A DNA stretch of 64,000 nucleotides. Source: Enorma phocaeensis. GTDB taxonomy: Bacteria > Actinomycetota > Coriobacteriia > Coriobacteriales > Coriobacteriaceae. Within the stretch, counting starts at the first letter, position 1. Each line of letters opens with the position of its first letter. The notes below the pieces were generated by a model that was given only the letters and a program-made list of their open reading frames with translations, ran no database searches and was not told the origin of the DNA. The translations under genes were made by a program, and so were the position numbers. Location: positions 62,001 through 126,000 of the forward strand of contig NZ_JACJKQ010000004.1 in assembly GCF_016901575.1 (NCBI RefSeq), written 5' to 3'. Shown here piece by piece: positions 23,547 through 37,527 of this stretch.

Positions 23547-23885
<339 letters not shown>

Positions 23886-24014
23886 AGCTCGCTCCCGTTC
23901 TTATCGCCGTGTAAACCACCGTCCGCGCCATTGCGGGCGCAGAACAGAAGGCGCGGCGGGGCGTGGCGACGGCCGCAAAGCTCCGTCGTGTCCCAGCGCC
24001 GCGCGGATACATGC

Positions 24015-25292
24015 CTACGAATCCAGGCCGGTGTACGCCGGATAGGCGCTCTCGCCGTGCAAGGTGACATCCATGCCCAGCGCCTCCTCGCGGTCGTCGG
24101 CGCGCAGGCGTCCGCCGAAGAGCGCCCGCACGACCAGGATGATGACAGCATCCACGACGACCACAAGCACGAGCGTCACCACGATGCCCAGAACCTGGCT
24201 TATCAGCAAAGAAGGGTCGCCCGTGTAGAGCAAGCCGCCCGCATCGGTCCAGGAAAGCTCGGGCACGCAGAACAGACCGGTGAGCAAACCGCCCAGGATG
24301 CCGCCCACGCCGTGGCATCCAAACGCGTCGAGCGCGTCGTCGTAGCCCAGGCGCGCCTTCAGGTGCGAGATGGCAAAGTAGCACACCGGCGAGACCACAA
24401 GCCCCATGATGACCGCGGCCCAAGGCTCGACAAAGCCAGCGCTCGGCGTTACCACGACGAGCCCGGCGACCAGGCCGGTGCATGCGCCGACGAGCGTGGG
24501 CTTGCCGGTCGCCTTGGCCTCGATGGCCATCCAGGACGCCAGGCCCGCCGCACTCGAGACAACGGTGTTGAGCACCGCGAGCGCCGCCACGCCATCCGCC
24601 GCAAAGGCAGACCCGCCGTTGAAGCCAAACCATCCAAACCAGAGCAGGCCCGCTCCCAGAGCCACAAACGGAACGTTGTGCGGACGGTACGAAGCGATTC
24701 CAAAGCCCCGGCGCCCGCCGAGCGCCAGGCATAGCAAGAGGCCCGTCACGCCCGAGCTGATGTGCACCACGTCGCCGCCGGCAAAGTCGAGCGCACCGAT
24801 GATGTCGCCGATCAAGCTGCCGTCTCCACCCCAGACCATATGGGCGAGCGGCGCATAGACCACGATGGACCAGATGGCCAGAAAGGCCATCACCGCGCCA
24901 AAGCGCATGCGACCGGCGACCGACCCCGTTATGATGGCGGCCGTGATGAGGGCGAACGCCATCTGAAAGACGATGTCGACCAGGGAGGGATAGGCCGTGC
25001 CGTCAGGCACGTCTGCGGCCTCGCCCAGCATGGATTCAACCGTGCCCATAAGGCCCAGCTGGTCGAATCCGCCGATAAATGGACTGGTTCCGTCGCCGCC
25101 GTAGGCCAACGACCAGCCCACGAGCACCCAGGTGAGGCCCACCACGCCGATGACGCCAAACGACATGAGCATGGTGTTGATGACGTTTTTGCGACGCGAC
25201 AGGCCGCCATAGAAAAACGCGAGTCCTGGCGTCATGAGCAGCACCAGCATGGTGCTGACGAGCATGAATGCCGTAGTTCCGGAATCGTACAT
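24015..25292 (-). CDS. amtB: Ammonium transporter AmtB
   Basis: Protein of 425 aa with about 11 transmembrane helices. Family signatures are LAFFYGGLSRRKNV, ADGVAALAVLNT, the pore-lining His in DFAGGDVVHISSGV and the second pore His in FGCHGVGGILGG. The start at 25292 is chosen because AAGGGGGG precedes it and MYDSGTTAFML gives a short periplasmic lead; an ATG at 25319 is also in frame. It conducts ammonium/ammonia into the cell and is gated by the downstream GlnK. Confidence 0.94.
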   Translation of the reverse strand: MYDSGTTAFMLVSTMLVLLMTPGLAFFYGGLSRRKNVINTMLMSFGVIGVVGLTWVLVGWSLAYGGDGTSPFIGGFDQLGLMGTVESMLGEAADVPDGTAYPSLVDIVFQMAFALITAAIITGSVAGRMRFGAVMAFLAIWSIVVYAPLAHMVWGGDGSLIGDIIGALDFAGGDVVHISSGVTGLLLCLALGGRRGFGIASYRPHNVPFVALGAGLLWFGWFGFNGGSAFAADGVAALAVLNTVVSSAAGLASWMAIEAKATGKPTLVGACTGLVAGLVVVTPSAGFVEPWAAVIMGLVVSPVCYFAISHLKARLGYDDALDAFGCHGVGGILGGLLTGLFCVPELSWTDAGGLLYTGDPSLLISQVLGIVVTLVLVVVVDAVIILVVRALFGGRLRADDREEALGMDVTLHGESAYPAYTGLDS

Positions 25293-25501
25293 GCGTCCCC
25301 CCTTCATCGTACGGCGCAAGCGCCGGGTTCGTACGGGGCGATGCTACCGCCGCTCGTCGCGATGAAGGTGGCCTGCCCGCCCGGTTTACAGCCTCACAAC
25401 CGTATCGAAACATGGGAAACGGGTTTGAAACCGCTCCGAAAGCAGCGGGCTACACGCGGTTCACCAACCTGACTCCAAGAAGAAACAAAGGCGTGGCAGC
25501 G

Positions 25502-26119
25502 CTACGACGCGATGGATGCCTCCCGGAGGGCGAGCGTATCCAGATGAAGCTCGGGGCGAGGGGCGAGGGTGGGCTCGCGAGCGCAAGGAAGGGCGCACGG
25601 CACTGCGACCGGACGAACCTGCGACGGCACGAGACGCGCACGGCCGTCGACGCAAACCGTCCTTGCCGGCTCGCTCCCGCCAGCCTGCATTCCCACGCGA
25701 AGCTCCCAAACCGATGCGATGTCCGCCTCGGGATCATGCGCGCGAAGCGCGACGAGAACGCCTGAAAAGACGGGGCCTGCGATATGGCACCGCCAAACAT
25801 GCACCCTAAGCCGCCAGGCGTCCATGCCTTCCTCAGACGATGCCCTGGGAACCCAAAGCGTGGCGGGACGGTCGAACCACAGCCCTTCAACCAGGCCTGC
25901 GCCCAAGTCGCTGCGCTCCTCTGCGAGGGCGACCGCAAGCGCCTGCGGCCCCGCCGCGGCATCCGATGCCCCGACGAGCGCCACGCGGCACCAGAACGCA
26001 CCCGCATGTCCCGGCACCTCGATGGCGGCCGGCACGATGCCGACCTCCCCGTCGGCCGGCGTTTCAAACGCGCCCACGACCCCTTCGGGCACAGGCGAAT
26101 AGCGGTCTAGCGCCAGCAT
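25502..26119 (-). CDS. Protein of unknown function at the end of the thiamine-regulated operon
   Basis: Protein of 205 aa with no family I recognise. It lacks a signal peptide or membrane segments and is rich in Val, Ala and Trp; it may be mostly beta-strand (SGVLVALRAHD, TLWVPRAS). Its ATG overlaps the end of the radical SAM gene by 13 nt and GAGGATGGATGAGG lies just upstream, which argues for translational coupling and a linked function. It would be the last gene of the TPP-riboswitch operon. I am less sure it is a gene than of its neighbours because GC-rich DNA opens many frames. Confidence 0.5.
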   Translation of the reverse strand: MLALDRYSPVPEGVVGAFETPADGEVGIVPAAIEVPGHAGAFWCRVALVGASDAAAGPQALAVALAEERSDLGAGLVEGLWFDRPATLWVPRASSEEGMDAWRLRVHVWRCHIAGPVFSGVLVALRAHDPEADIASVWELRVGMQAGGSEPARTVCVDGRARLVPSQVRPVAVPCALPCAREPTLAPRPELHLDTLALREASIAS

Positions 26120-27513
26120 TCCTCATCCATCCTCTCCAAATCTGCACAGGGATGGTTGCCGCACATCTTGTAATCATCGTCCAGGCAGATGAGCCCATGC
26201 GCCCGACGAATGTCATGAAACCCCTGCGCCAAGCGCACGTAGTAGTCGACAGGCGCCATAGGCTGCCAGCCCAGCCGGGCTCGGCGATGCGGGCGCCACA
26301 CGATAAAAAGACAGTTCACCCCGCGCTCGGCAAAGTATTCGCAGCCCGCAAGGTTCGACGCAAGCGCCTCGCCCGTCGTCTCGAAACCATGCGGTGCCGC
26401 AAGCTCGGCACCTGCGACGACCTGCGTATACACGTTGCCACGCCCGAAGACCTCGACGGCGTCGACGGTGCGGCGCACCCACTCGTCATGCCCCACCACG
26501 CGCTCCTTGCCCGGGCAGAGCCATCGGAACCTCTCGCGGTCCCACACCTCGATGTCGGCGCTATAGGATGTGATGCCGGTCTCACGCCGGATGCGCTCCA
26601 GCAGATGCCTGGGGTAGGCCGGCGCCATGAGCTGACAGGGAAACCGACCCGAAAAGTCGCGGCCCATAGCCTGGAGGTCGCAGATGTAGCGCTCGACTTC
26701 GCGCTCGAACGGCTCGGCGCCCGAATAGTCTGTGCCTCCCGACAGGTAGAGCTCGGAGAAGCGCCCCGGCTCCTCGAGGGCGGCGTGAACGGTCTCGTAG
26801 AGGTCTTCTGGGTCGACCGCGGGATCTTCATGCCCCTTGGTGAAAAAGGCGCAGAACCGGCATTGCTCGCGACGGTCCCAGAAATGACACGTGCGGTATG
26901 CGGTGAAGATGAGCTTTTGCGGGCGCACGTCGACAAGGGTGTCCATGAGGGTGCCGCGCGAGGTTCGACGCCCGAAGATCCCAGGGCGCGGCACGAAGTC
27001 CACCACATCGATCGCCGGGTCGCCCTCCCGCGCCTCGCGCAGAACGAACGCCCCGAGCTCCACATCGAGGTCCAGGAGGTAGGGGTCCTCATACGCCTCG
27101 CCGTAGTTGACGAACACGAAGGTGCCGTCACGAAGCACCACCGCCCCCGGCATGACCTGGCTCGTAGAGCGGCCGGCGAACTCGATTTCGAAGGAGTTCG
27201 CCTCGTCGCCCTCGCCGGGAACGGTGCCGAAGCGGTAGTCATCTTGCTGCAGGCGCTCCATAGCGCGTGGCGAGATGATCGCCCCGTGACACGTGAGACT
27301 GAGCTTCATGATCACGAAAGGCGCCATGCCGGGGTTCTCCTCGCACAGGCGCCGCCATTCGGCATACTTGGGATAGGAGCGCGGGTCCACGTCGCGGTTA
27401 AGGGCCTCGCGTGCGTCGGCAGCCCTCGATGCCGTCGCCGCCCGCTCGCGCCCAGGCGCCTCCCCGCGCCCGCCTCTTCCAGAAGCCTCCCCAACATGCG
27501 CCATCTGCTTCAC
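26107..27513 (-). CDS. Radical SAM enzyme with CX8CX2C motif in the TPP-riboswitch operon
   Basis: Protein of 468 aa from GTG 27513 (GGGG five nt before; ATG 27504 is the next choice). The cluster motif is YRTCHFWDRREQCRFCAFF: three Cys spaced CX8CX2C, unlike the standard CX3CX2C, with an aromatic after the last Cys region as usual. Downstream are LYLSGGTDYSG (SAM-binding GGE-like) and SYSADIEVWD. About 100 residues precede the motif, and the C terminus ends in KMCGNHPCADLERMDEECW, a possible second metal site. It starts 20 bp after ykoC and so belongs to the thiamine-precursor operon. No thiamine gene with this architecture is known to me; a pyrimidine (HMP) salvage or degradation step is a guess. 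Confidence 0.8.
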   Translation of the reverse strand: MKQMAHVGEASGRGGRGEAPGRERAATASRAADAREALNRDVDPRSYPKYAEWRRLCEENPGMAPFVIMKLSLTCHGAIISPRAMERLQQDDYRFGTVPGEGDEANSFEIEFAGRSTSQVMPGAVVLRDGTFVFVNYGEAYEDPYLLDLDVELGAFVLREAREGDPAIDVVDFVPRPGIFGRRTSRGTLMDTLVDVRPQKLIFTAYRTCHFWDRREQCRFCAFFTKGHEDPAVDPEDLYETVHAALEEPGRFSELYLSGGTDYSGAEPFEREVERYICDLQAMGRDFSGRFPCQLMAPAYPRHLLERIRRETGITSYSADIEVWDRERFRWLCPGKERVVGHDEWVRRTVDAVEVFGRGNVYTQVVAGAELAAPHGFETTGEALASNLAGCEYFAERGVNCLFIVWRPHRRARLGWQPMAPVDYYVRLAQGFHDIRRAHGLICLDDDYKMCGNHPCADLERMDEECWR

Positions 27514-27532
27514 GACGTCCCCTTCCTGCGAC

Positions 27533-28264
27533 TTATCTGACCAGCATGAGCCCTGCGGCGATTGCCGCCAGCACGCCCAAGGCAAACGCGACGTCGCGGG
27601 CGCGCAGCGGCACGCGGAAGGCGACGCGGCGCGGGGCATCGTTTTCGAATCCACGCGACTCCATTGCCATGGCGAGGCTCTCCGAACGTTCGAGCGCGTG
27701 CGCCAGCATGGGCAGCAGGCGCCGGGTAGAGAAGGGTCCGGCCTTGACGCCACGCACCTTGAGCGCGGCCCCCACCGTGCCGAACTCCTCGCGCACCACC
27801 GGAAAGAAGTGATATGCCGCAAGGATCCCGTAGGCAAACTTCGGAGGCAGCCGGAACTGCTGCATCAGGCTCATCACAAGCTCGAACGCGTTGCTCGTGA
27901 AGGCAAAGAGCATCCCGAGGCCTCCGTAGGCAAGCACGCGCGACGCAAGCTGCATGGCGGTGGTCCAGTCAGTGGCAAGCAGGGTCCGCTGCCCGAAGAC
28001 GCTCGTCGACACGCCCACCGCCTCTGCGTTGCCCGCGCCGCCCGCTCCAAAGAAGAGCCCTGTGGTAAAAAACGCCAGCGCCGTCAAGAAAAATGGCAGC
28101 AGGGCAAGCGCGAGGCGACGTCGGTTCACACCGGACGTGGCGACCGTCGCCACCAGGCAGGCTAGGCACACCGCCACGTTCACCGCAACGTTGTAGGTAA
28201 GCGACAGCATAAGCGACGCCACGATGAGCGTCGCCAGCTTGACGCCCGGATTTATGCTCCGCAT
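27533..28264 (-). CDS. ykoC: ECF transporter T component, YkoC-like
   Basis: Protein of 243 aa with five to six hydrophobic segments. The EcfT coupling motif is visible as MAMESRGFEND; the first of the two usual Arg-Gly segments is LKVRGVK. It is the membrane scaffold linking the ATPase to the substrate-binding S component. Its ATG overlaps the end of the ATPase gene by 13 nt. The order YkoE-D-C under a TPP riboswitch identifies the thiamine/hydroxymethylpyrimidine importer type. Confidence 0.88.
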   Translation of the reverse strand: MRSINPGVKLATLIVASLMLSLTYNVAVNVAVCLACLVATVATSGVNRRRLALALLPFFLTALAFFTTGLFFGAGGAGNAEAVGVSTSVFGQRTLLATDWTTAMQLASRVLAYGGLGMLFAFTSNAFELVMSLMQQFRLPPKFAYGILAAYHFFPVVREEFGTVGAALKVRGVKAGPFSTRRLLPMLAHALERSESLAMAMESRGFENDAPRRVAFRVPLRARDVAFALGVLAAIAAGLMLVR

Positions 28265-29808
28265 GGCGGCTCCTTCCGCTCCTCGACATACCGGTCGACC
28301 TCTTGGGGCGAGAGCGCGCGCAGCGACCCGTCCTCAAGCAGCAGCACCTGATTGGAGATGGCGCGCGCCAGCTCGACATCGTGCGTGGCGACGAGCACGG
28401 CGAGCCCTCGCTCGACCCGCTTCATAAGCAGCTCGAGAATGAAGCGCGTCGAGCGCTCGTCCTGCGCATAGGTGGGCTCGTCCAAAAGCAAGACGTCGCA
28501 ATCCGCCGCAAGCATGGCGAGCAGCGCCAGCCTGCGCTGCTGCCCCTGAGAGAGCTCGTAGGGCGATGCCTGCGCGCGTGCGTCGAGGCCGAATTCTTCG
28601 AGCAGGCCATGGGCGACCGGGGCGAGCTGCTCGTCCGGCACGCCCGGCCTCGACGCCCGAAGCGTTACGAGCACCTCGTCGCTTACGGTCAGGGCGAGAA
28701 ACTGGAAGCGCGGGTTTTGGAAGACCAGCCCCACGCGGCCCGCCGACTCGACCGAACCGGAGAAGCGGGCGGCCCCCGCGAGCGCCGTGAGCAGCGTGGA
28801 CTTTCCCGATCCGCACTCCCCGACGAGCGACGTGACGCTGCCACGCGGGAGCGCGAGCGAAAGCCCGCTCAGAAACGGCGTCCTGCCATGGCGCACCGTA
28901 AGGTCGCGCGCCTCGAGCGCCGCCGAGGCGTCGCCGGCAAGATGCGGCGGATGCACGCCGCGAAGCCAGTCGGATCCCAAGAAGAGCCCGCGCGCCGCGA
29001 ATGCCTCGCGACGCGCGGGCGCCTCTGCCGGCGAAAAGGCAAGCTCGTCCAGGTTGCCCTTGCGCTCCATGAAGATAATTCGCGAGCAAAACGGCAGCCA
29101 CCAGCCTGGCTTGTGGTCCACGACGACAAGCGTGACCCCCCGCCGCTTCAATCGCTCGAGCTCGCCTGCAAGACGCCTGCAGGAGAGCGGGTCGAGGTTG
29201 GCGAACGGCTCGTCCAGCACGAGCGTGCGAGCCCCGGTGGCAAGCGCCGTCACGAGCGCGAGCTTCTGCTTGGTGCCGCCCGAGAGCGTATGGATGGGGC
29301 TGCGGGCATAGCCGTCCAGCCCCGCAAGCTCAAGCAGCTCATGGGCGCGAGCGTCAAGGTCGCCGGGACAATCGACGTTCTCGAGCGCAAAGAGCACCTC
29401 ATGGAGCACGGTGTCCATGCAAAACTGGTTGTCGGGGTTCTGAAAGAGGATCGACACCGCCCGAGAGCGCTCCTGCGGCCCCATCCGGTCGATGGGCCGG
29501 CCCTCGACCTCGACCGAGCCTTCGAGCACCCCCGCATAATCCGGATAGAGGCCGGCCAGGCAGTAGGCAAGCGTGGACTTTCCGCAGCCGGACGGGCCCA
29601 TCACGAGCAGCGTCTCACCCGGCTGGACGGAAAGGGAGATGTCGCTGAAAACGGGGGTCTCCCCCTCCGCATAGCGAAAGGTGAGACCCCGGCACGAGAG
29701 GGCGGGTATGTCGCGCGGCGCCTTTGCAACCGAGGTGCGCGCGCCCCGAACGGACAAGGCGGAGGCGTTTGGCGCGTCCGGCCCGATGTGTGCCTTGCCG
29801 CTACTCAT
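28252..29808 (-). CDS. ykoD: Double-domain ECF transporter ATPase, YkoD-like
   Basis: Protein of 518 aa made of two complete ABC ATPase domains. Domain 1: Walker A MGPSGCGKST, signature LSGGTKQKL, Walker B LVLDEPFANLD. Domain 2: Walker A VGECGSGKST, signature LSQGQQRRL, Walker B LLLDEPTYAQD. Fusion of the A and A' subunits is typical of YkoD. The ATG at 29808 overlaps the ykoE stop in an ATGAGTAG junction; an in-frame ATG at 29826 is equally possible. It energises uptake with YkoC and YkoE. Confidence 0.9.
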   Translation of the reverse strand: MSSGKAHIGPDAPNASALSVRGARTSVAKAPRDIPALSCRGLTFRYAEGETPVFSDISLSVQPGETLLVMGPSGCGKSTLAYCLAGLYPDYAGVLEGSVEVEGRPIDRMGPQERSRAVSILFQNPDNQFCMDTVLHEVLFALENVDCPGDLDARAHELLELAGLDGYARSPIHTLSGGTKQKLALVTALATGARTLVLDEPFANLDPLSCRRLAGELERLKRRGVTLVVVDHKPGWWLPFCSRIIFMERKGNLDELAFSPAEAPARREAFAARGLFLGSDWLRGVHPPHLAGDASAALEARDLTVRHGRTPFLSGLSLALPRGSVTSLVGECGSGKSTLLTALAGAARFSGSVESAGRVGLVFQNPRFQFLALTVSDEVLVTLRASRPGVPDEQLAPVAHGLLEEFGLDARAQASPYELSQGQQRRLALLAMLAADCDVLLLDEPTYAQDERSTRFILELLMKRVERGLAVLVATHDVELARAISNQVLLLEDGSLRALSPQEVDRYVEERKEPPCGA

Positions 29809-30400
29809 GCGCGCGACCGAGCGCATAGCTCTTCAGAAGGCCGGTGCGAGCAAGCTTGTCCGCAACGACCTTGCAGATGACGCCGGCAAAGAGCACCGAG
29901 CTTGCCAGGCGAATGATGAAGAACAGCGCCAGCAGCGGCACGGCGAGCTCGCCATAGCCGGAACGCACAAAGCTCCACACAAAGCTGATGATGCAGGAAC
30001 ATGCCGCCGCCAGAAGCATGGTCGACCAATCGAAGCGGCGGTAGCGAAACGCCGCGAACGCGAGCTCGGAGCCGATGCCCTGCACGAAGCCCGTCACGAT
30101 GACCATGGGGCCATACATATTGCCCAGCAGCACCTCGATGAGCGCCGCGATGATCTCGGACACGAGCGCCACGCCCGGCTTCTGCAGGATATAGGCCGCA
30201 AACGTCGACGCCATGAACCACACGCCAAATAGAAGCTCGTTGCCCAAAAAGCCCAGGCCCATGGGCGTGCAGGCGGTGTTGATGAACGACGACAGATACA
30301 CCGCCACCAGATACACCACGCCAAACACGATGCAGCACATGGCAACCAGAATAATCTCTTTGAGCTCCCAGCCCATCTTGTTGCTGTTCGTCGTCGCCAT
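29801..30400 (-). CDS. ykoE: ECF transporter S component, YkoE-like (thiamine/HMP)
   Basis: Protein of 199 aa with about six transmembrane segments and the YkoE-type start WELKEIILVAMCCIVFGVVYL. Characteristic are the first helix, the FGVWFMASTFAAYIL region and TGFVQGIGSELAFAAFRY, where the substrate cavity forms. It confers specificity for thiamine or its pyrimidine precursor. It sits three bp after the ykoF-like stop, in the operon headed by the TPP riboswitch. Confidence 0.9.
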   Translation of the reverse strand: MATTNSNKMGWELKEIILVAMCCIVFGVVYLVAVYLSSFINTACTPMGLGFLGNELLFGVWFMASTFAAYILQKPGVALVSEIIAALIEVLLGNMYGPMVIVTGFVQGIGSELAFAAFRYRRFDWSTMLLAAACSCIISFVWSFVRSGYGELAVPLLALFFIIRLASSVLFAGVICKVVADKLARTGLLKSYALGRAHE

Positions 30401-30403
30401 AGG

Positions 30404-31084
30404 TTACTCCTCCTCGTCGGTCGGGCTGTTTACGTTGATGGTGAAGTGCAGCACGTAATGGGAGACGGTGTGCTCCATGAGTGCGCAGACGTCGTCAAGA
30501 TAGGTGAAGATGTCGCGGATGCTGCCCTCGACGCGCGTCGCGTAGTGGATGCTCGTAGGGTTGAGACCCAGCTCCTCGGCTCGATACCAGACCTTGGCGA
30601 TGTCGTCGATATAGTTCTCGACGCCAAGCGGATAGAGCGAAAGCTTGGCGAGCGCCGGCTGCGTGGCCGATGCTACGGTCGCGGCGTTGGGCGCCTCACC
30701 CTCGCAGGACAGGACCGAGTCGCCCGAGACGTCGCCGGGGCATCCGCGCGAGACCTGGCCCTCGAGCGCCATGTGGACGCCCTCGCGCCACGCGTTCGCA
30801 AAGAGCGCGGCGACGGCGTCGACCACATACTCGCGCTTGCCGCGATAGACCGTGGACAGCGCGTCCGACTGGCACCAAACATGGCTGGTGTCCGTCTTGT
30901 CGAGCGCGCCCAAGATGATGGACACGAAATCATCGGTCATGGGATATAGGGAAAACCTGCACCCCGTGATGGGCAGATCGGTCCCTCGCCCCGACCACGG
31001 CAGGTCTTCGCGGCCGCAGCCGCACCCGCAACCGCAGGAATCAACGGCCTCGCTCGAAACCGCATTCATCGGTTTTTCTGTCAT
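30404..31084 (-). CDS. ykoF: YkoF-like thiamine/HMP-binding protein
   Basis: Protein of 226 aa. The ATG at 31084 is preceded by GGGAGGGAAGCC; the open frame continues upstream through the riboswitch, which cannot be coding. After a Cys/Gly-rich stretch (DSCGCGCGCGRED, unusual) come two similar ferredoxin-like repeats starting GCRFSLYPM and LAKLSLYPLG, the arrangement of YkoF, which binds thiamine/HMP in the cytoplasm. The Cys-rich N terminus might bind a metal. First gene of the TPP-riboswitch operon, three bp from ykoE. Confidence 0.85.
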   Translation of the reverse strand: MTEKPMNAVSSEAVDSCGCGCGCGREDLPWSGRGTDLPITGCRFSLYPMTDDFVSIILGALDKTDTSHVWCQSDALSTVYRGKREYVVDAVAALFANAWREGVHMALEGQVSRGCPGDVSGDSVLSCEGEAPNAATVASATQPALAKLSLYPLGVENYIDDIAKVWYRAEELGLNPTSIHYATRVEGSIRDIFTYLDDVCALMEHTVSHYVLHFTINVNSPTDEEE

Positions 31085-31207
31085 GGCTTCCCTCCCAGAA
31101 GCGTCAAGCCGTACACGCCGGCCGCCGGGGGAGAACCTGGTTTTGGTTTGGACGAAATGCCTCGGGATGTCTCCGAAGCCCTGGGAACCGCTGCAGACGG
31201 CCCCATA

Positions 31208-31297
31208 CAAGGCTGCTTCCCTCCGCTGGTACAAACCAGATCAGGTTCAAGGGGTTGGGCTTCGGCCCTCTCAGCTCGCAAGAGCACCCCCAGCAAG
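31208..31297 (-). ncRNA. TPP riboswitch (THI element)
   Basis: On the minus strand the conserved parts appear in order: GGGGGTGCTC, CTGAGAGGGC, AACCCCTTGAACCTGATCTG, and GTACCAGCGGAGGGAAGC. These are the TPP-binding pyrimidine- and pyrophosphate-sensor helices of the THI box. It lies about 125 nt upstream of the ykoF-like start. It should reduce expression of the transporter, the radical SAM gene and the orphan gene when thiamine pyrophosphate is high. Confidence 0.96.
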
Positions 31298-31842
31298 ATT
31301 GTCAATGCGGCATCGGGCAGCGGCGCGCCCATGCCCGAGCACCGCGGCAATTGTATACCGCGGGCCCGGGCGTAGCAAATGAAATCAAAGACCGCCCGGA
31401 CCTCTCCCGAAAGCGCATCCGCTCGCCAAACGGCCCCCGGGGCTATCTACGCAGCGTAGGTAGCCCCTTGCGCGGCGCTCACCCATAATGGGGCCTGCGC
31501 CAAAGAGCACCAAGGCACCCCATCGAAAGGATAGACATATGGCGGCGCCCGCCCGCCATGCCGCGCCGCCGTTGCCGCGCGCCGTCCCGATGCCGCGCGG
31601 CAGCGGAGCCTTTTCGGCATATCCCCTGAAGCCGCCGACGCTGCCTTTACCTTCGCCCTCCATTACCCGCCGTTCACCGAGAAGTTTTCTCAAAACCGAC
31701 GCTCACGCAAGATGACGACGCGTTCGCGGGAGCCGAGAGACGCACATGTGCCTCGCCGTACAATTTTTTCTGGAACATCGAGGGTTTCTGCCTCGAACTT
31801 GCCTGCCCCGGCATGGCAGTCGACCCAGAAAGGACACGCGAC
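31298..31842 (+). other. Intergenic region between TPP riboswitch and amylosucrase gene
   Basis: This region lies between divergent genes. A 13-bp-arm hairpin with one mismatch (GGGGCTATCTACG / CGTAGGTAGCCCC) occupies 31438-31466. A 58-codon frame beginning ATG 31540 after AAAGGA looks compositionally biased, and I do not accept it as a gene. Protein-like segments such as FALHYPPFTEKF in one frame and SPYNFFWNIEGF in another (about 31630-31800) may be a decayed gene, but I cannot identify it. Confidence 0.4.
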
Positions 31843-33736: not shown

Positions 33737-35740
33737 CTAGAAGCCGGATGAGAAGAATGCCGCGTCCGCCTCGCGCCATAGGCGCAGGCGGGCGGGGTCG
33801 ATTGACACATGGGCATGCTCGGGAACCTCGTGCCATTTGACGGTGTAGCCCGCCCCATGGCTGCAAAACACCGAGTCGGGCGTGTTGGGCAGGTCCGCCT
33901 CGGGATCGTAGGCGGCCTCGTCGATAACACGCTGCGCGTCATGGCATGTTCGATAGCCGGCATATTCCAGCATGAGGCGCCCGCGCCCTCCCGAGTAACC
34001 ACTCACTTCCAGGGCATACTCGCGCATCTCGGAGGCAGGGGCGACGCCCTCGATGCCCGCAAGCTCGCCGTCCACCTCTGGAGCGTCGAACTCCGCCGCC
34101 ATACGTTGCAGGTCGGCGAGCGAGCGCCCCACCTTCTCTTGGGGCACCACCAACCGAAAGCGATACCATGGCTCCAAGAGCTCGCAGGCGCCGCGCTCGC
34201 GCGCCATCATGAGCCCCTCGCGGAGCGCACGGTAGGTCGCCTGGCGAAAATCGCCGCCCTCGGTGTGCTTGGCGTGGGCACGCCCGCCCAGCAGGGTGAT
34301 GCGGACGTCCGTGACGGGGGCGCCGGTGAGCACGCCCCGATGCTCGCGCTCAAACACATGCGTCAGAATCAGGCGCTGCCAGTTGCGGTCGAGGTCGTCT
34401 TCAGAACAGCGGGTCCCCGCCTGGATACCCGACCCTCGCGGCAAGGGCTCCAGCATGAGGTGCGCCTCGGCGTAGTGGCGCAGCGGCTCGAAGTGGCCCA
34501 CGCCCTCGACCGCCTCCGTAATGGTCTCCTTATAGAGAATACCGCCCGGGCCAAAGGCGACGTCGAGCCCGTAGCGGTCATGCAGGAGCTGCTGGACGAC
34601 CTCGCGCTGCACCGCGCCCATGAGCTGCACATGCACCTCCTGCAGCTGCTCCTCCCAGCTTACGCCGAGCATGGGGTCTTCGTCGGCAAGCTCGCGCAAG
34701 GCGCGCACGACGGCGTCCACGTCGCGGCCGTCCGCAAGGACCTGATACGAGAGCACGGGCGCCAGGACCGGCGCCGCCCCCGCGGGCTCGGAGCCGAGCG
34801 CGCTGCCGGGAACCACATGCGACAGCCCCGTCACGGCGCACACCCGGCCGGCGGGCACCTCGGATACCGTTTGGAAGGCATCCGCATCATAGATACGCAC
34901 CTGGTCCACCTTCTCGGTCCAGGCCTCACCGCGGTCCACGCCGGAAAGCACCGTCTTCGCACGAAGGGCGCCGCCCGTCACCTTGAGCCACGCCAGGCGC
35001 TCGCCTCGAGGCGACCGGCTCACCTTGTAGACGCGGGCGGCGAACTCCTCCGGCCAGGCATGCTCGTCGACGAGGGCGGCGAGCCCGTCCATGAACGCCT
35101 CCACGCCCTCGCCCCGCAGGGCCGAGCCGGCAAAGCAGGGAAAGACCTTTCGCTCGCGCACGAGCCTGCGCAGGGTCGCGCGCGAGAGCGCCCCGCCTTC
35201 GAGGTATTCGTCGAGCGCCGCCTCGTCGGTCGCCGCCGCGTCTTCGCACGCCGCTCCCCCACCCAGGAGCTCCTCGCCAGAAAGGCAGACGGCATCGAGC
35301 CGGCGCGCAAGCTCATCCGTCACCGCGGCGCGCTCCGTGCCCGCCAGGTCGAGCTTGTTGATGAAGATGAGCGCGGGGATCCCGTAGCGCCCCAGCAGCT
35401 CCCAAAGCGTCTCGGTGTGGCCCTGGACGCCGTCGTTCGCGCCGATCACGAGCACGGCATAGTCGAGCGCCATGAGCGTACGCTCCGCCTCGGCAGAAAA
35501 GTCGACGTGCCCCGGGGCATCGAGCAGCATGAGGTGGACGTCGTTGTAGTCGAGCGACGTCTGCTTCGAGAAGATGGTGATGCCGCGCTCGCGCTCCATG
35601 GCGTCCGTGTCAAGGTGCGCGTCGCCGTGGTCCACGCGCCCGCGCCTGCGGATGGCGCCCGCGGCGAAGAGCATCGCCTCCGCGAGGGTCGTCTTGCCAG
35701 CGTCGACGTGGGCGAGCATGCCCACCACCGCCTGCCTCAT
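33737..35740 (-). CDS. TetM/EF-G-superfamily GTPase (ribosomal-protection-like)
   Basis: Protein of 667 aa from ATG 35740. GTPase motifs: G1 AHVDAGKTT, G2 ERERGIT, G3 DAPGHVD and G4 NKLD, then EF-G-type domains II-V with the YSGGRGRLMLEYAGY segment typical of tetracycline ribosomal-protection proteins. It resembles the chromosomal TetM-like translation factors common in gut Firmicutes and Actinobacteria. Whether it gives tetracycline protection cannot be told from sequence, because that depends on the domain IV loop tips. It starts 11 bp after the COG3044 ATPase gene and is probably co-transcribed with it. Confidence 0.85.
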   Translation of the reverse strand: MRQAVVGMLAHVDAGKTTLAEAMLFAAGAIRRRGRVDHGDAHLDTDAMERERGITIFSKQTSLDYNDVHLMLLDAPGHVDFSAEAERTLMALDYAVLVIGANDGVQGHTETLWELLGRYGIPALIFINKLDLAGTERAAVTDELARRLDAVCLSGEELLGGGAACEDAAATDEAALDEYLEGGALSRATLRRLVRERKVFPCFAGSALRGEGVEAFMDGLAALVDEHAWPEEFAARVYKVSRSPRGERLAWLKVTGGALRAKTVLSGVDRGEAWTEKVDQVRIYDADAFQTVSEVPAGRVCAVTGLSHVVPGSALGSEPAGAAPVLAPVLSYQVLADGRDVDAVVRALRELADEDPMLGVSWEEQLQEVHVQLMGAVQREVVQQLLHDRYGLDVAFGPGGILYKETITEAVEGVGHFEPLRHYAEAHLMLEPLPRGSGIQAGTRCSEDDLDRNWQRLILTHVFEREHRGVLTGAPVTDVRITLLGGRAHAKHTEGGDFRQATYRALREGLMMARERGACELLEPWYRFRLVVPQEKVGRSLADLQRMAAEFDAPEVDGELAGIEGVAPASEMREYALEVSGYSGGRGRLMLEYAGYRTCHDAQRVIDEAAYDPEADLPNTPDSVFCSHGAGYTVKWHEVPEHAHVSIDPARLRLWREADAAFFSSGF

Positions 35741-35751
35741 GTCTCGTCCCC

Positions 35752-37527
35752 CTATCGCTCGACGCGCCACCGGTTGAGGGCGCAGAAAAGCTCTTGCGGA
35801 CGCGGCAGCGCAAGGCCGCAAGCGATCTCGCCGCGCTCACAGAGCGCCTCCCACCCGCGGACGTCCATAAGATCGAACATGTCGTCAACGGCATCTCCCA
35901 CCGCGGAGCCCCCGCCGCGGCGAGCCTGCAGCAGCACCCGCGCCATCTGCGCGAGCGCGGCAACCTGCTCGACGTCCACCAACTGCTCCACCTGGCGGAG
36001 GTCTACGGTCGCGCGCCCGACATCAAAGCCGTCAAGGCCGCGCGTGCGGATCTTGATGCGTGCGTCGCCCGATGCCCCTCGCGCTTGCCCGCGCCCTCCC
36101 CTGCCGGGGCGCGACGCGGCGCGCGGCTCGCCCGCCGAAAGCTTCAGCCCTCGAGGGGCGATTGCCTCAAACGGGTCAGCGGCCGAGCGCTCCTGCGCCA
36201 CCGCCGCGCCGGCGGCATCTTCGCCAAGCATCTCCCGACATACCTCGCGCACGCGCCCCGTTATGTCGCGCGCCTCGTAGCAGTCCATCTGGATCACCAC
36301 GTCCGCGACGGGAAAGAACGCCCCCGAGCTGCCCACCACGAGCACGCAGCTGACGCCCTCGCGTTTCCAGAGCGCCCCCACGCGCTCGACGAACGGCGTG
36401 ATGGGCTCGTGGTCCGCCGCGACCACCGCCTCCATCAGGCGGTCGCGCACCATGAAGTTGGTGGCGGAGGTATCCTCGTCGATGAGCAGCACGCGGGCGC
36501 CCGCCTCGAGCGCCTCCATCGTGGAGGCTGCCTGAGAGGTGCTGCCGCTGGCATCGGCGGTTGAAAACGCATGCGTGTCGCGCCCGTCGGGGAGGTTGTC
36601 GATAAACGGGGAGATGTCGACCGCGCGCACGACGCGCCCGTCCTCGGCACGCAGCTTCATCGCGGTCGCGTCGGTGATGACAAGCTCGCGCCCATCGCCC
36701 GCCACATGATCGTAGACGCCTTCTTGCAGCGCCTTGAGCAGCGTCGACTTGCCGTGATATCCGCCGCCCACGATGAGCGTTATGCCACGGGGCACGCCCA
36801 TGCCCGGCGTCGGCCCCCGATGCGGAAGATCGAGCACCACGCGCAGCGACTCCGGCGAGAAGAAGGGGCGGGCGTCCGCAAGCGGACGCGCCGACACGCC
36901 GCTCGCTCGAGGAAGGACGGCGCCGTCCGCCACAAATGCCACAAGGTCGCGCTCGCGCAGCTGGCGGCGCACCTCGCGCTGGTCGTCGGCAAGCTCGACG
37001 GCACTCCTCGCCGCGACGAGCGCCTCGCGGTCGCAGACCAGGGCGCGCTCCACGCATGCGGGCACGATGTCGAGCAGCATGTGGGCGAGCGCCCGTGCGT
37101 CGGTGGTGCGCCCATGGGCGGGAAACCCCGCCTCGAAGCGCAGTATCACGCCGTCGGGAGCGACTTCGCACGCAGAGCGCGGCAAGACCTCGGGCCCCGG
37201 CCGGCTCGTCGATAGAAGGCCGCTCTTGCCCGACCCTCCCACAGCATAGCTTGCGCGCGAGACCGCCTCGGAAAAGCGACGGACCAGCAGGTCCTCGAGC
37301 GCGATGCGGCGGTGCGGCTCGTCGAAGAGCTCTGGCGGGAACGCGGCGCGCTCTGCCGGAACCCAAACGCTGAGCTTCGAGGGCGCGGCAAACGGGTCGC
37401 CCTGCACGTGGTCGATCGAGAGGTCGAAGCCGTCAAGCCGCCACACGCCGCGAAGCGCCTTGTAGGCGGGGTAGCCCCGCCTGTCGATTGATTCCAGCTG
37501 CCGCAGCAGCTCGCGCCCCGTCTTCAT
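35752..37527 (-). CDS. Predicted ABC-class ATPase (COG3044 / DUF2791 family)
   Basis: Protein of 591 aa. The ATG at 37527 follows the repeat-rich gap; the longer frame from 37737 reads through repeats. The family pattern is visible: HVQGDPFAAPSKL near residue 45, the P-loop VGGGYHGKSTLL, AFSTADASGSTSQAA as signature-like segment and LLIDEDTSATNFM as Walker B. The biological role is unknown; such ATPases are soluble and lack membrane partners. The C-terminal 150 residues are Arg/Gly-rich then helical. Its pairing with a TetM-like GTPase in one operon hints at a translation-linked role, which is inference. Confidence 0.85.
   Translation of the reverse strand: MKTGRELLRQLESIDRRGYPAYKALRGVWRLDGFDLSIDHVQGDPFAAPSKLSVWVPAERAAFPPELFDEPHRRIALEDLLVRRFSEAVSRASYAVGGSGKSGLLSTSRPGPEVLPRSACEVAPDGVILRFEAGFPAHGRTTDARALAHMLLDIVPACVERALVCDREALVAARSAVELADDQREVRRQLRERDLVAFVADGAVLPRASGVSARPLADARPFFSPESLRVVLDLPHRGPTPGMGVPRGITLIVGGGYHGKSTLLKALQEGVYDHVAGDGRELVITDATAMKLRAEDGRVVRAVDISPFIDNLPDGRDTHAFSTADASGSTSQAASTMEALEAGARVLLIDEDTSATNFMVRDRLMEAVVAADHEPITPFVERVGALWKREGVSCVLVVGSSGAFFPVADVVIQMDCYEARDITGRVREVCREMLGEDAAGAAVAQERSAADPFEAIAPRGLKLSAGEPRAASRPGRGGRGQARGASGDARIKIRTRGLDGFDVGRATVDLRQVEQLVDVEQVAALAQMARVLLQARRGGGSAVGDAVDDMFDLMDVRGWEALCERGEIACGLALPRPQELFCALNRWRVER

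Follow-up and report, generated by a model that had tools for sequence, protein, structure and literature searches.

A TPP-riboswitch ykoFEDC operon of Enorma phocaeensis that ends in a radical SAM enzyme gene and a split-barrel partner gene

We studied a stretch of 64,000 nucleotides (nt) from the draft genome of Enorma phocaeensis (2.36 Mb, 99.76% complete), hereafter the window (contig NZ_JACJKQ010000004.1, positions 62,001 to 126,000), and in it a single minus-strand operon: a thiamine pyrophosphate (TPP) riboswitch followed by the importer genes ykoF-E-D-C, a gene for a radical S-adenosylmethionine (SAM) enzyme and a last gene for a split-barrel protein, its putative partner. The sequence comparisons described below show that the two terminal genes encode an enzyme pair that is conserved, fused in some genomes, and linked to TPP control in all Coriobacterial carriers found. 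We read the locus as a TPP-riboswitch-controlled vitamin B1 acquisition operon, in which a two-component radical enzyme would convert an imported thiamine-like compound to usable thiamine; the probability that we give to this reading is a little under one half (about 0.45).

Pairing of the two terminal genes and their link to TPP control

Search with an enzyme profile detected the radical SAM enzyme in 5 of 396 sampled Coriobacteriia genomes, and in 3 of 140 genomes of the family that includes carrier G060. All five carriers, which belong to two families, shared one arrangement (TPP riboswitch, ykoF-E-D-C, enzyme, partner), in agreement with a first-pass annotation of the window that had extended the operon into the two further genes. 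The same annotation had called the riboswitch at the head of ykoFEDC clear, and had named a lack of any linkage between homologues and thiamine genes as speaking against its proposal. The riboswitches of the carriers scored 73.2 (window), 75.1, 66.1, 64.3 and 76.4 bits with RF00059, whose gathering score is 54.3, and in Coriobacteriia the homologues are linked to thiamine genes. Gene starts were uncertain in several carriers.

Relatives of the enzyme were compared in a tree and a gene adjacency table, both of 45 relatives of at least 350 amino acids (aa); two radical SAM fragments below that length (in L080 and L083) and the partial or weaker matches L034, L035 and L037 were left out. The adjacency table covered 16 of the 22 Chlorobial matches, and for six of its eight Streptomyces-type loci the sequence ended about 1.4 kb downstream. 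One clade (support 100/97) united the window protein with its relatives from Chlorobia, and in it the partner was located directly downstream of the enzyme, or fused to it, in 19 of 21 rows; in the remaining variant radical SAM clades, this held for none of 24 rows. The motif CGNH of the enzyme was distributed likewise (21/21 rows of the partner-bearing clade, 0/24 elsewhere). Since CGNH and the partner track the same clade, we infer that their co-occurrence may be the sign of a joint active site; a metal or cluster site might be made up jointly by CGNH and an invariant HLD of the partner (see below). In two of the five carriers, G060 (615 aa) and G104 (611 aa), the partner was fused to the C-terminus of the enzyme; in the unfused forms, both proteins would presumably pair physically. 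Judged from these alignments and gene orders, the partnership and the TPP linkage appear well supported.

In the window, the pair closely follows the importer genes (Table 1). ykoC is separated from the radical SAM gene by 19 nt (GTG start) or 28 nt (ATG start), close to the 20 bp first annotated, whereas the annotated overlap of 13 nt between the radical SAM and partner genes was exact. In a pattern scan of the window, the interval from ykoC to the radical SAM gene was free of terminator-like sites, and both terminal genes are probably co-transcribed with the importer operon. Nor did the scan reveal any such site on the minus strand between the riboswitch and ykoF, so translational control by the riboswitch is possible; the predicted fold of the leader had no clear anti-Shine-Dalgarno switch (z -0.40).

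Table 1 Features of the operon and the evidence for them; positions are those of the window
Feature	Position	Strand	Evidence
TPP riboswitch aptamer RF00059, operon head	31201..31301	-	cmscan 73.2 bits vs gathering 54.3
ykoF, thiamine/HMP-binding protein, Cys-rich N-terminus	30404..31084	-	Pfam PF07615 161.5 bits; PDB 1s7h E 8.7e-38
ykoE, energy-coupling factor (ECF) transporter S component	29801..30400	-	PDB 5edl E 8.1e-41; Pfam PF09819
ykoD, fused double ATPase of ECF transporter	28252..29826	-	Pfam ABC_tran, two stretches
ykoC, ECF T component	27533..28264	-	Pfam CbiQ 72.8 bits
Radical SAM enzyme	26107..27513 (GTG start 27513) or 27504 (ATG)	-	NCBIfam NF045502, fold model, conservation
Split-barrel (PNPOx-like) partner, invariant C-terminal HLD	25502..26119	-	Chlorobial partner profile E 1.5e-8; fold model
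HMP, hydroxymethylpyrimidine.

The radical SAM enzyme and its split-barrel partner

The window radical SAM protein scored 162.6 bits, above the cut-off of 125, with the variant radical SAM domain model NF045502, to which NCBIfam assigns no function. This is a domain model over several clades, and the three cluster cysteines were common to all six clades of the relatives, whereas CGNH and the split-barrel partner were confined to the clade of the window enzyme. With the MSMEG_0568 family (TIGR04043) the protein reached 44.6 bits, far under the cut-off of 303.7, and Pfam, PF04055 included, gave no match; PF04055 stayed below threshold with a Chlorobial relative too (23.2 vs gathering 29.5). The cluster motif CX8CX2C of the first-pass annotation corresponded to C209-X8-C218-X2-C221 (residues numbered from the GTG start), and its three cysteines were invariant in 45/45 aligned relatives. 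A second Cys-rich segment had also been described at the end of the protein; four cysteines are indeed there (C443, C451, C456 and C466), but only C451, which belongs to CGNH (residues 451-454), was invariant among relatives, being kept beyond the nearest ones. Search of solved structures by sequence found nothing for this protein. A structure model built from three sequences, with a mean predicted local distance difference test (pLDDT) of 62.4, was closest to lipoyl synthase (LipA), BioB, HydE and MqnE (best Z 13.0, root-mean-square deviation 3.7 over 237 residues). The three-cysteine motif and the predicted, partial TIM-barrel fold place the enzyme in the radical SAM superfamily. Between the window and Collinsella sp. 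An2, its synonymous (dS) and nonsynonymous (dN) divergences were 1.23 and 0.089, a dN/dS ratio well below one.

The last gene had been taken for an orphan. It is not: it encodes a diverged split-barrel protein of the flavin mononucleotide (FMN), heme or F420 type, a steady partner of the radical SAM enzyme that has relatives of its own. BLASTP and hhalign gave the first link, to the protein directly behind a Chlorobiaceae radical SAM gene, which itself matched Pfam PNPOx_N (E 4.8e-5) just below the curated score. A hidden Markov model built from 15 Chlorobial partners only found all five Coriobacterial partners among 1186 open reading frames (E 1.3e-8 to 1.7e-5). Apart from these and its training set, it matched, at E up to 10, only one truncated copy from the same Chlorobial cluster; the reverse, Coriobacterial profile recovered all 15 Chlorobial partners. 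PF01243 did not match the window partner; it matched 10 of the 20 members of the partner family at E up to 0.1 (best 1.6e-5), one of them with a score of 24.2 against a cut-off of 28.1. When the partner profile was searched against solved structures, the split-barrel matches were weak (best E 0.093). The HLD at the C-terminus was invariant in 20/20 family members.

The structure model of the partner, built from three sequences (mean pLDDT 68.5, low over residues 146-202), matched HupZ (Z 10.2) and an FMN-binding protein (Z 9.7), as well as HutZ and F420-binding proteins, at Z 8-10 overall, and the 50 matches listed were split-barrel type proteins throughout. HupZ and HutZ, of the HutZ/HugZ/HupZ group, are thus among its nearest folds, whereas its sequence identity to HupZ is about 5 percent. 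According to this model, the partner probably binds FMN, heme or F420. The dN/dS ratio of the partner gene, window versus Collinsella sp. An2, was well below one (dN 0.31; dS 2.0, near saturation). Profile matches, fusion, predicted fold and dN/dS together support the view that the partner is a real gene.

Proposed function and alternatives

We searched the carriers for ThiC, ThiE and ThiN-type thiamine monophosphate synthase, and compared them with 14 control genomes. ThiC (PF01964), which synthesizes hydroxymethylpyrimidine phosphate and in other bacteria likewise unites radical SAM chemistry with TPP control, was found in 0/5 carriers and in 13/14 controls; with the lack of a Pfam match for the window enzyme, this agrees with the first annotation, which had set the enzyme apart from ThiC. 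ThiE was missing from all five carriers and present in 11 of the controls. The ThiN-type synthase was also found in 0/5 carriers; the three controls without ThiE had it, so that every control was positive for one synthase or the other. Lacking both ThiE and a ThiN-type synthase, the carriers, as far as their gene content indicates, cannot join HMP and thiazole by known biochemistry and must obtain preformed thiamine from outside.

The window ykoE and ykoF products match the solved Bacillus subtilis proteins 5edl and 1s7h. YkoE of B. subtilis is reported to bind thiamine with a dissociation constant of about 4.5 nM (PMC5037267), and binding and transport of thiamine and HMP are attributed to YkoF and YkoEDC (PMC5037267, PMC6593275). 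The pyrimidine contacts of B. subtilis YkoE (Trp49, Glu77 and Gln95) were kept in 5/5 carriers, in which the thiazole contacts differ (Phe at Tyr46 and Ser at Asp131). The YkoF N-terminus of the carriers is Cys-rich ahead of the first YkoF repeat (window 31010-31040), with CGCGCGC in the window and in Collinsella sp. An2, CSCSC in G308 and TCCEGC in G060 and G104, a possible metal site. A second TPP-like element of the same genome, outside the window (G000:C22:29911-30032, L036), reached 45.4 bits (E 9.4e-8), short of the gathering score; behind it lie the genes of an ATP-binding cassette (ABC) transporter of the NMT1/THI5 type, with permease, NMT1/THI5-like binding protein and ATPase.

In the proposed mechanism, scarce TPP would turn the operon on and YkoFEDC would import a compound of the thiamine family. 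The radical SAM protein would then make a 5'-deoxyadenosyl radical and attack the imported compound, and the split-barrel partner would deliver the substrate or move electrons to complete the reaction; the product, thiamine, would be pyrophosphorylated. The imported molecule, the substrate and the direction of the reaction are our suggestions: we favor salvage or repair of a modified thiamine over breakdown because a TPP riboswitch expresses its genes when TPP is short. A bolder version, which we consider doubtful, is that the pair rebuilds chemically altered thiamine brought in by YkoFEDC, and so opens to bacteria that lack ThiC, ThiE and ThiN a vitamin B1 pool that others cannot use. Many gut bacteria need thiamine from their surroundings, and the vitamers available to them are set by their transporters and salvage enzymes, which are still being catalogued. 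If the proposal is true, a TPP-controlled radical pair in strains that do not assemble thiamine would be a new chemical step in B1 exchange, and a testable entry point to the radical SAM/split-barrel pairs, of unassigned function, behind many Chlorobial importers.

Several results weigh against the salvage proposal. The closest relatives outside Coriobacteriia are those of Chlorobia, where the pair adjoins sulfonate-type NMT1/SsuA ABC importers, partly near NifHDK-like genes. The predicted co-occurrence of homologues with TPP riboswitches, seen in 5/5 Coriobacteriia, did not extend to Chlorobia (0/14 loci); the pair family as a whole is therefore not a thiamine family, and its tie to thiamine is so far peculiar to Coriobacteriia. 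In Collinsella sp. An2, the gap between ykoC and the enzyme gene is 318 nt long (L028 9292-9609) and contains a long palindromic hairpin that carries a T-run and is more stable than all 200 shuffled versions (z -6.2). The hairpin may stop transcription before the enzyme gene or may be an inserted repeat; it matched no Rfam family and had no copy in the window. Closely related ykoFEDC operons also occur without the pair, such as that of Enterococcus gallinarum, which has its own TPP riboswitch (86 bits), so the importer needs no pair. Finally, the residues of the YkoE pocket were dropped as an indicator of the ligand, since controls without the pair (five of seven plasmid-borne matches, two truncated Lacticaseibacillus matches being excluded) differ at the thiazole site too, with Phe/Gly in E. 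gallinarum and Phe/Glu in L. fermentum.

We considered four other functions for the pair. The first-pass annotation had suggested processing of imported pyrimidine or thiamine breakdown products, here into HMP for thiamine synthesis. The description of YkoF and YkoEDC as proteins for HMP as well as thiamine (PMC5037267, PMC6593275) would fit, as would a YkoE pocket that keeps its pyrimidine residues and neither thiazole contact in 5/5 carriers. We regard it as unlikely, because the carriers, with neither ThiE nor a ThiN-type synthase (at least one of which is found in 14/14 controls), have no known route from HMP to thiamine, and because E. gallinarum, without the pair, likewise departs from B. 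subtilis at the thiazole contacts.

The pair might instead leave the imported molecule untouched and replace a TPP-dependent reaction when TPP is scarce, since riboswitches can control cofactor-independent isozymes, as with MetE under B12 riboswitches, and none of our results places the pair in contact with the imported ligand. This seems rather unlikely: in 5/5 carriers the pair is attached to an importer and not to a metabolic operon, and importers adjoin it in Chlorobia too. Cleavage of the C-S bond of a sulfur-containing relative of thiamine, releasing sulfur or thiazole, much as the Chlorobial pairs may cleave C-S bonds, is suggested by the SsuA/NMT1 importers and NifHDK-like genes next to the Chlorobial relatives, and by the related SsuCAB and IsrBHDK, reported to serve isethionate assimilation in Rhodobacter capsulatus (PMC11423573). 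The TPP riboswitch would, however, turn on such breakdown of thiamine at the very time of TPP shortage; the radical SAM genes adjacent to NifHDK fall in another clade, which lacks both CGNH and the partner; and the only NifH matches in the carriers were short (38-75 of 271 positions), which together make organosulfur chemistry quite improbable. Such matches were rejected as NifH and read as MinD/ParA-like proteins. Still more improbable in our estimate is a defence against thiamine antivitamins, for example methoxythiamine or bacimethrin, which would enter through YkoFEDC and be inactivated or repaired by the pair. Producers of these compounds exist (PMC12345177) and a TPP-controlled importer would admit analogues at low TPP, but a link to antivitamins was seen in no locus.

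Comparable systems, distant relatives and neighboring genes

The window operon shares the TPP riboswitch and ykoF-E-D-C with operons of the B. subtilis type, and differs from them in its two terminal enzyme genes. No published description of this radical SAM/split-barrel pair was found among open-licence PMC papers. A precedent by analogy, not by membership, may be HmuW/HmuF of anaerobic heme breakdown, where a radical SAM enzyme and an FMN partner end an importer operon, and where HmuF is reported to deliver the substrate and reduce the product (PMC10404700). HmuF is described as a flavodoxin, not a split barrel, and HmuW as a class C methyltransferase (PMC10404700).

The use of isethionate by R. 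capsulatus was assigned to isrBHDK and ssuCAB through mutants and heterologous expression (PMC11423573). The Chlorobial loci are similar in their combination of an importer with NifHDK and in the radical SAM gene and redox partner(s) behind the importer. In L081 the gene order is radical SAM, NifH, NifD, NifK, which resembles isrBHDK; the radical SAM gene in the IsrB position is likened to it by gene position, and falls in a clade separate from the partner-bearing one, as do the other NifH-adjacent Chlorobial genes, which lack CGNH and the partner. No NifHDK-like genes were seen beside the five carrier operons, and no NifH in the carriers was convincing.

A strong enzyme match was present in 15 of 247 genomes of the Chlorobial phylum. 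Around their NifHDK-like genes and sulfonate-type importers, the Chlorobial loci L029, L071, L074-L076 and L081 had variant radical SAM genes, as many as four or five of them. Loci L030 and L031 (G014 and G133, of another family of the order) carried a distant variant radical SAM clade, without partner or CGNH, in which Thr replaces the otherwise invariant C333. The plasmid-borne Streptomyces relatives of the enzyme had no thiamine context. The gene directly behind one of them was considered as a candidate partner, and was rejected because the partner profile does not find it.

Other genes lie close to the operon in the window. Downstream on the same strand (23547-25319) are two genes, one for an ammonium transporter that exceeds the NCBIfam amt cut-off and one that resembles P-II regulators. 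At 33737-35821 there is an EF-G-like GTPase of the tetracycline ribosomal-protection type (397.9 bits, under the NCBIfam cut-off of 775), and a protein with a nearly identical start adjoins the same operon in Collinsella sp. An2.

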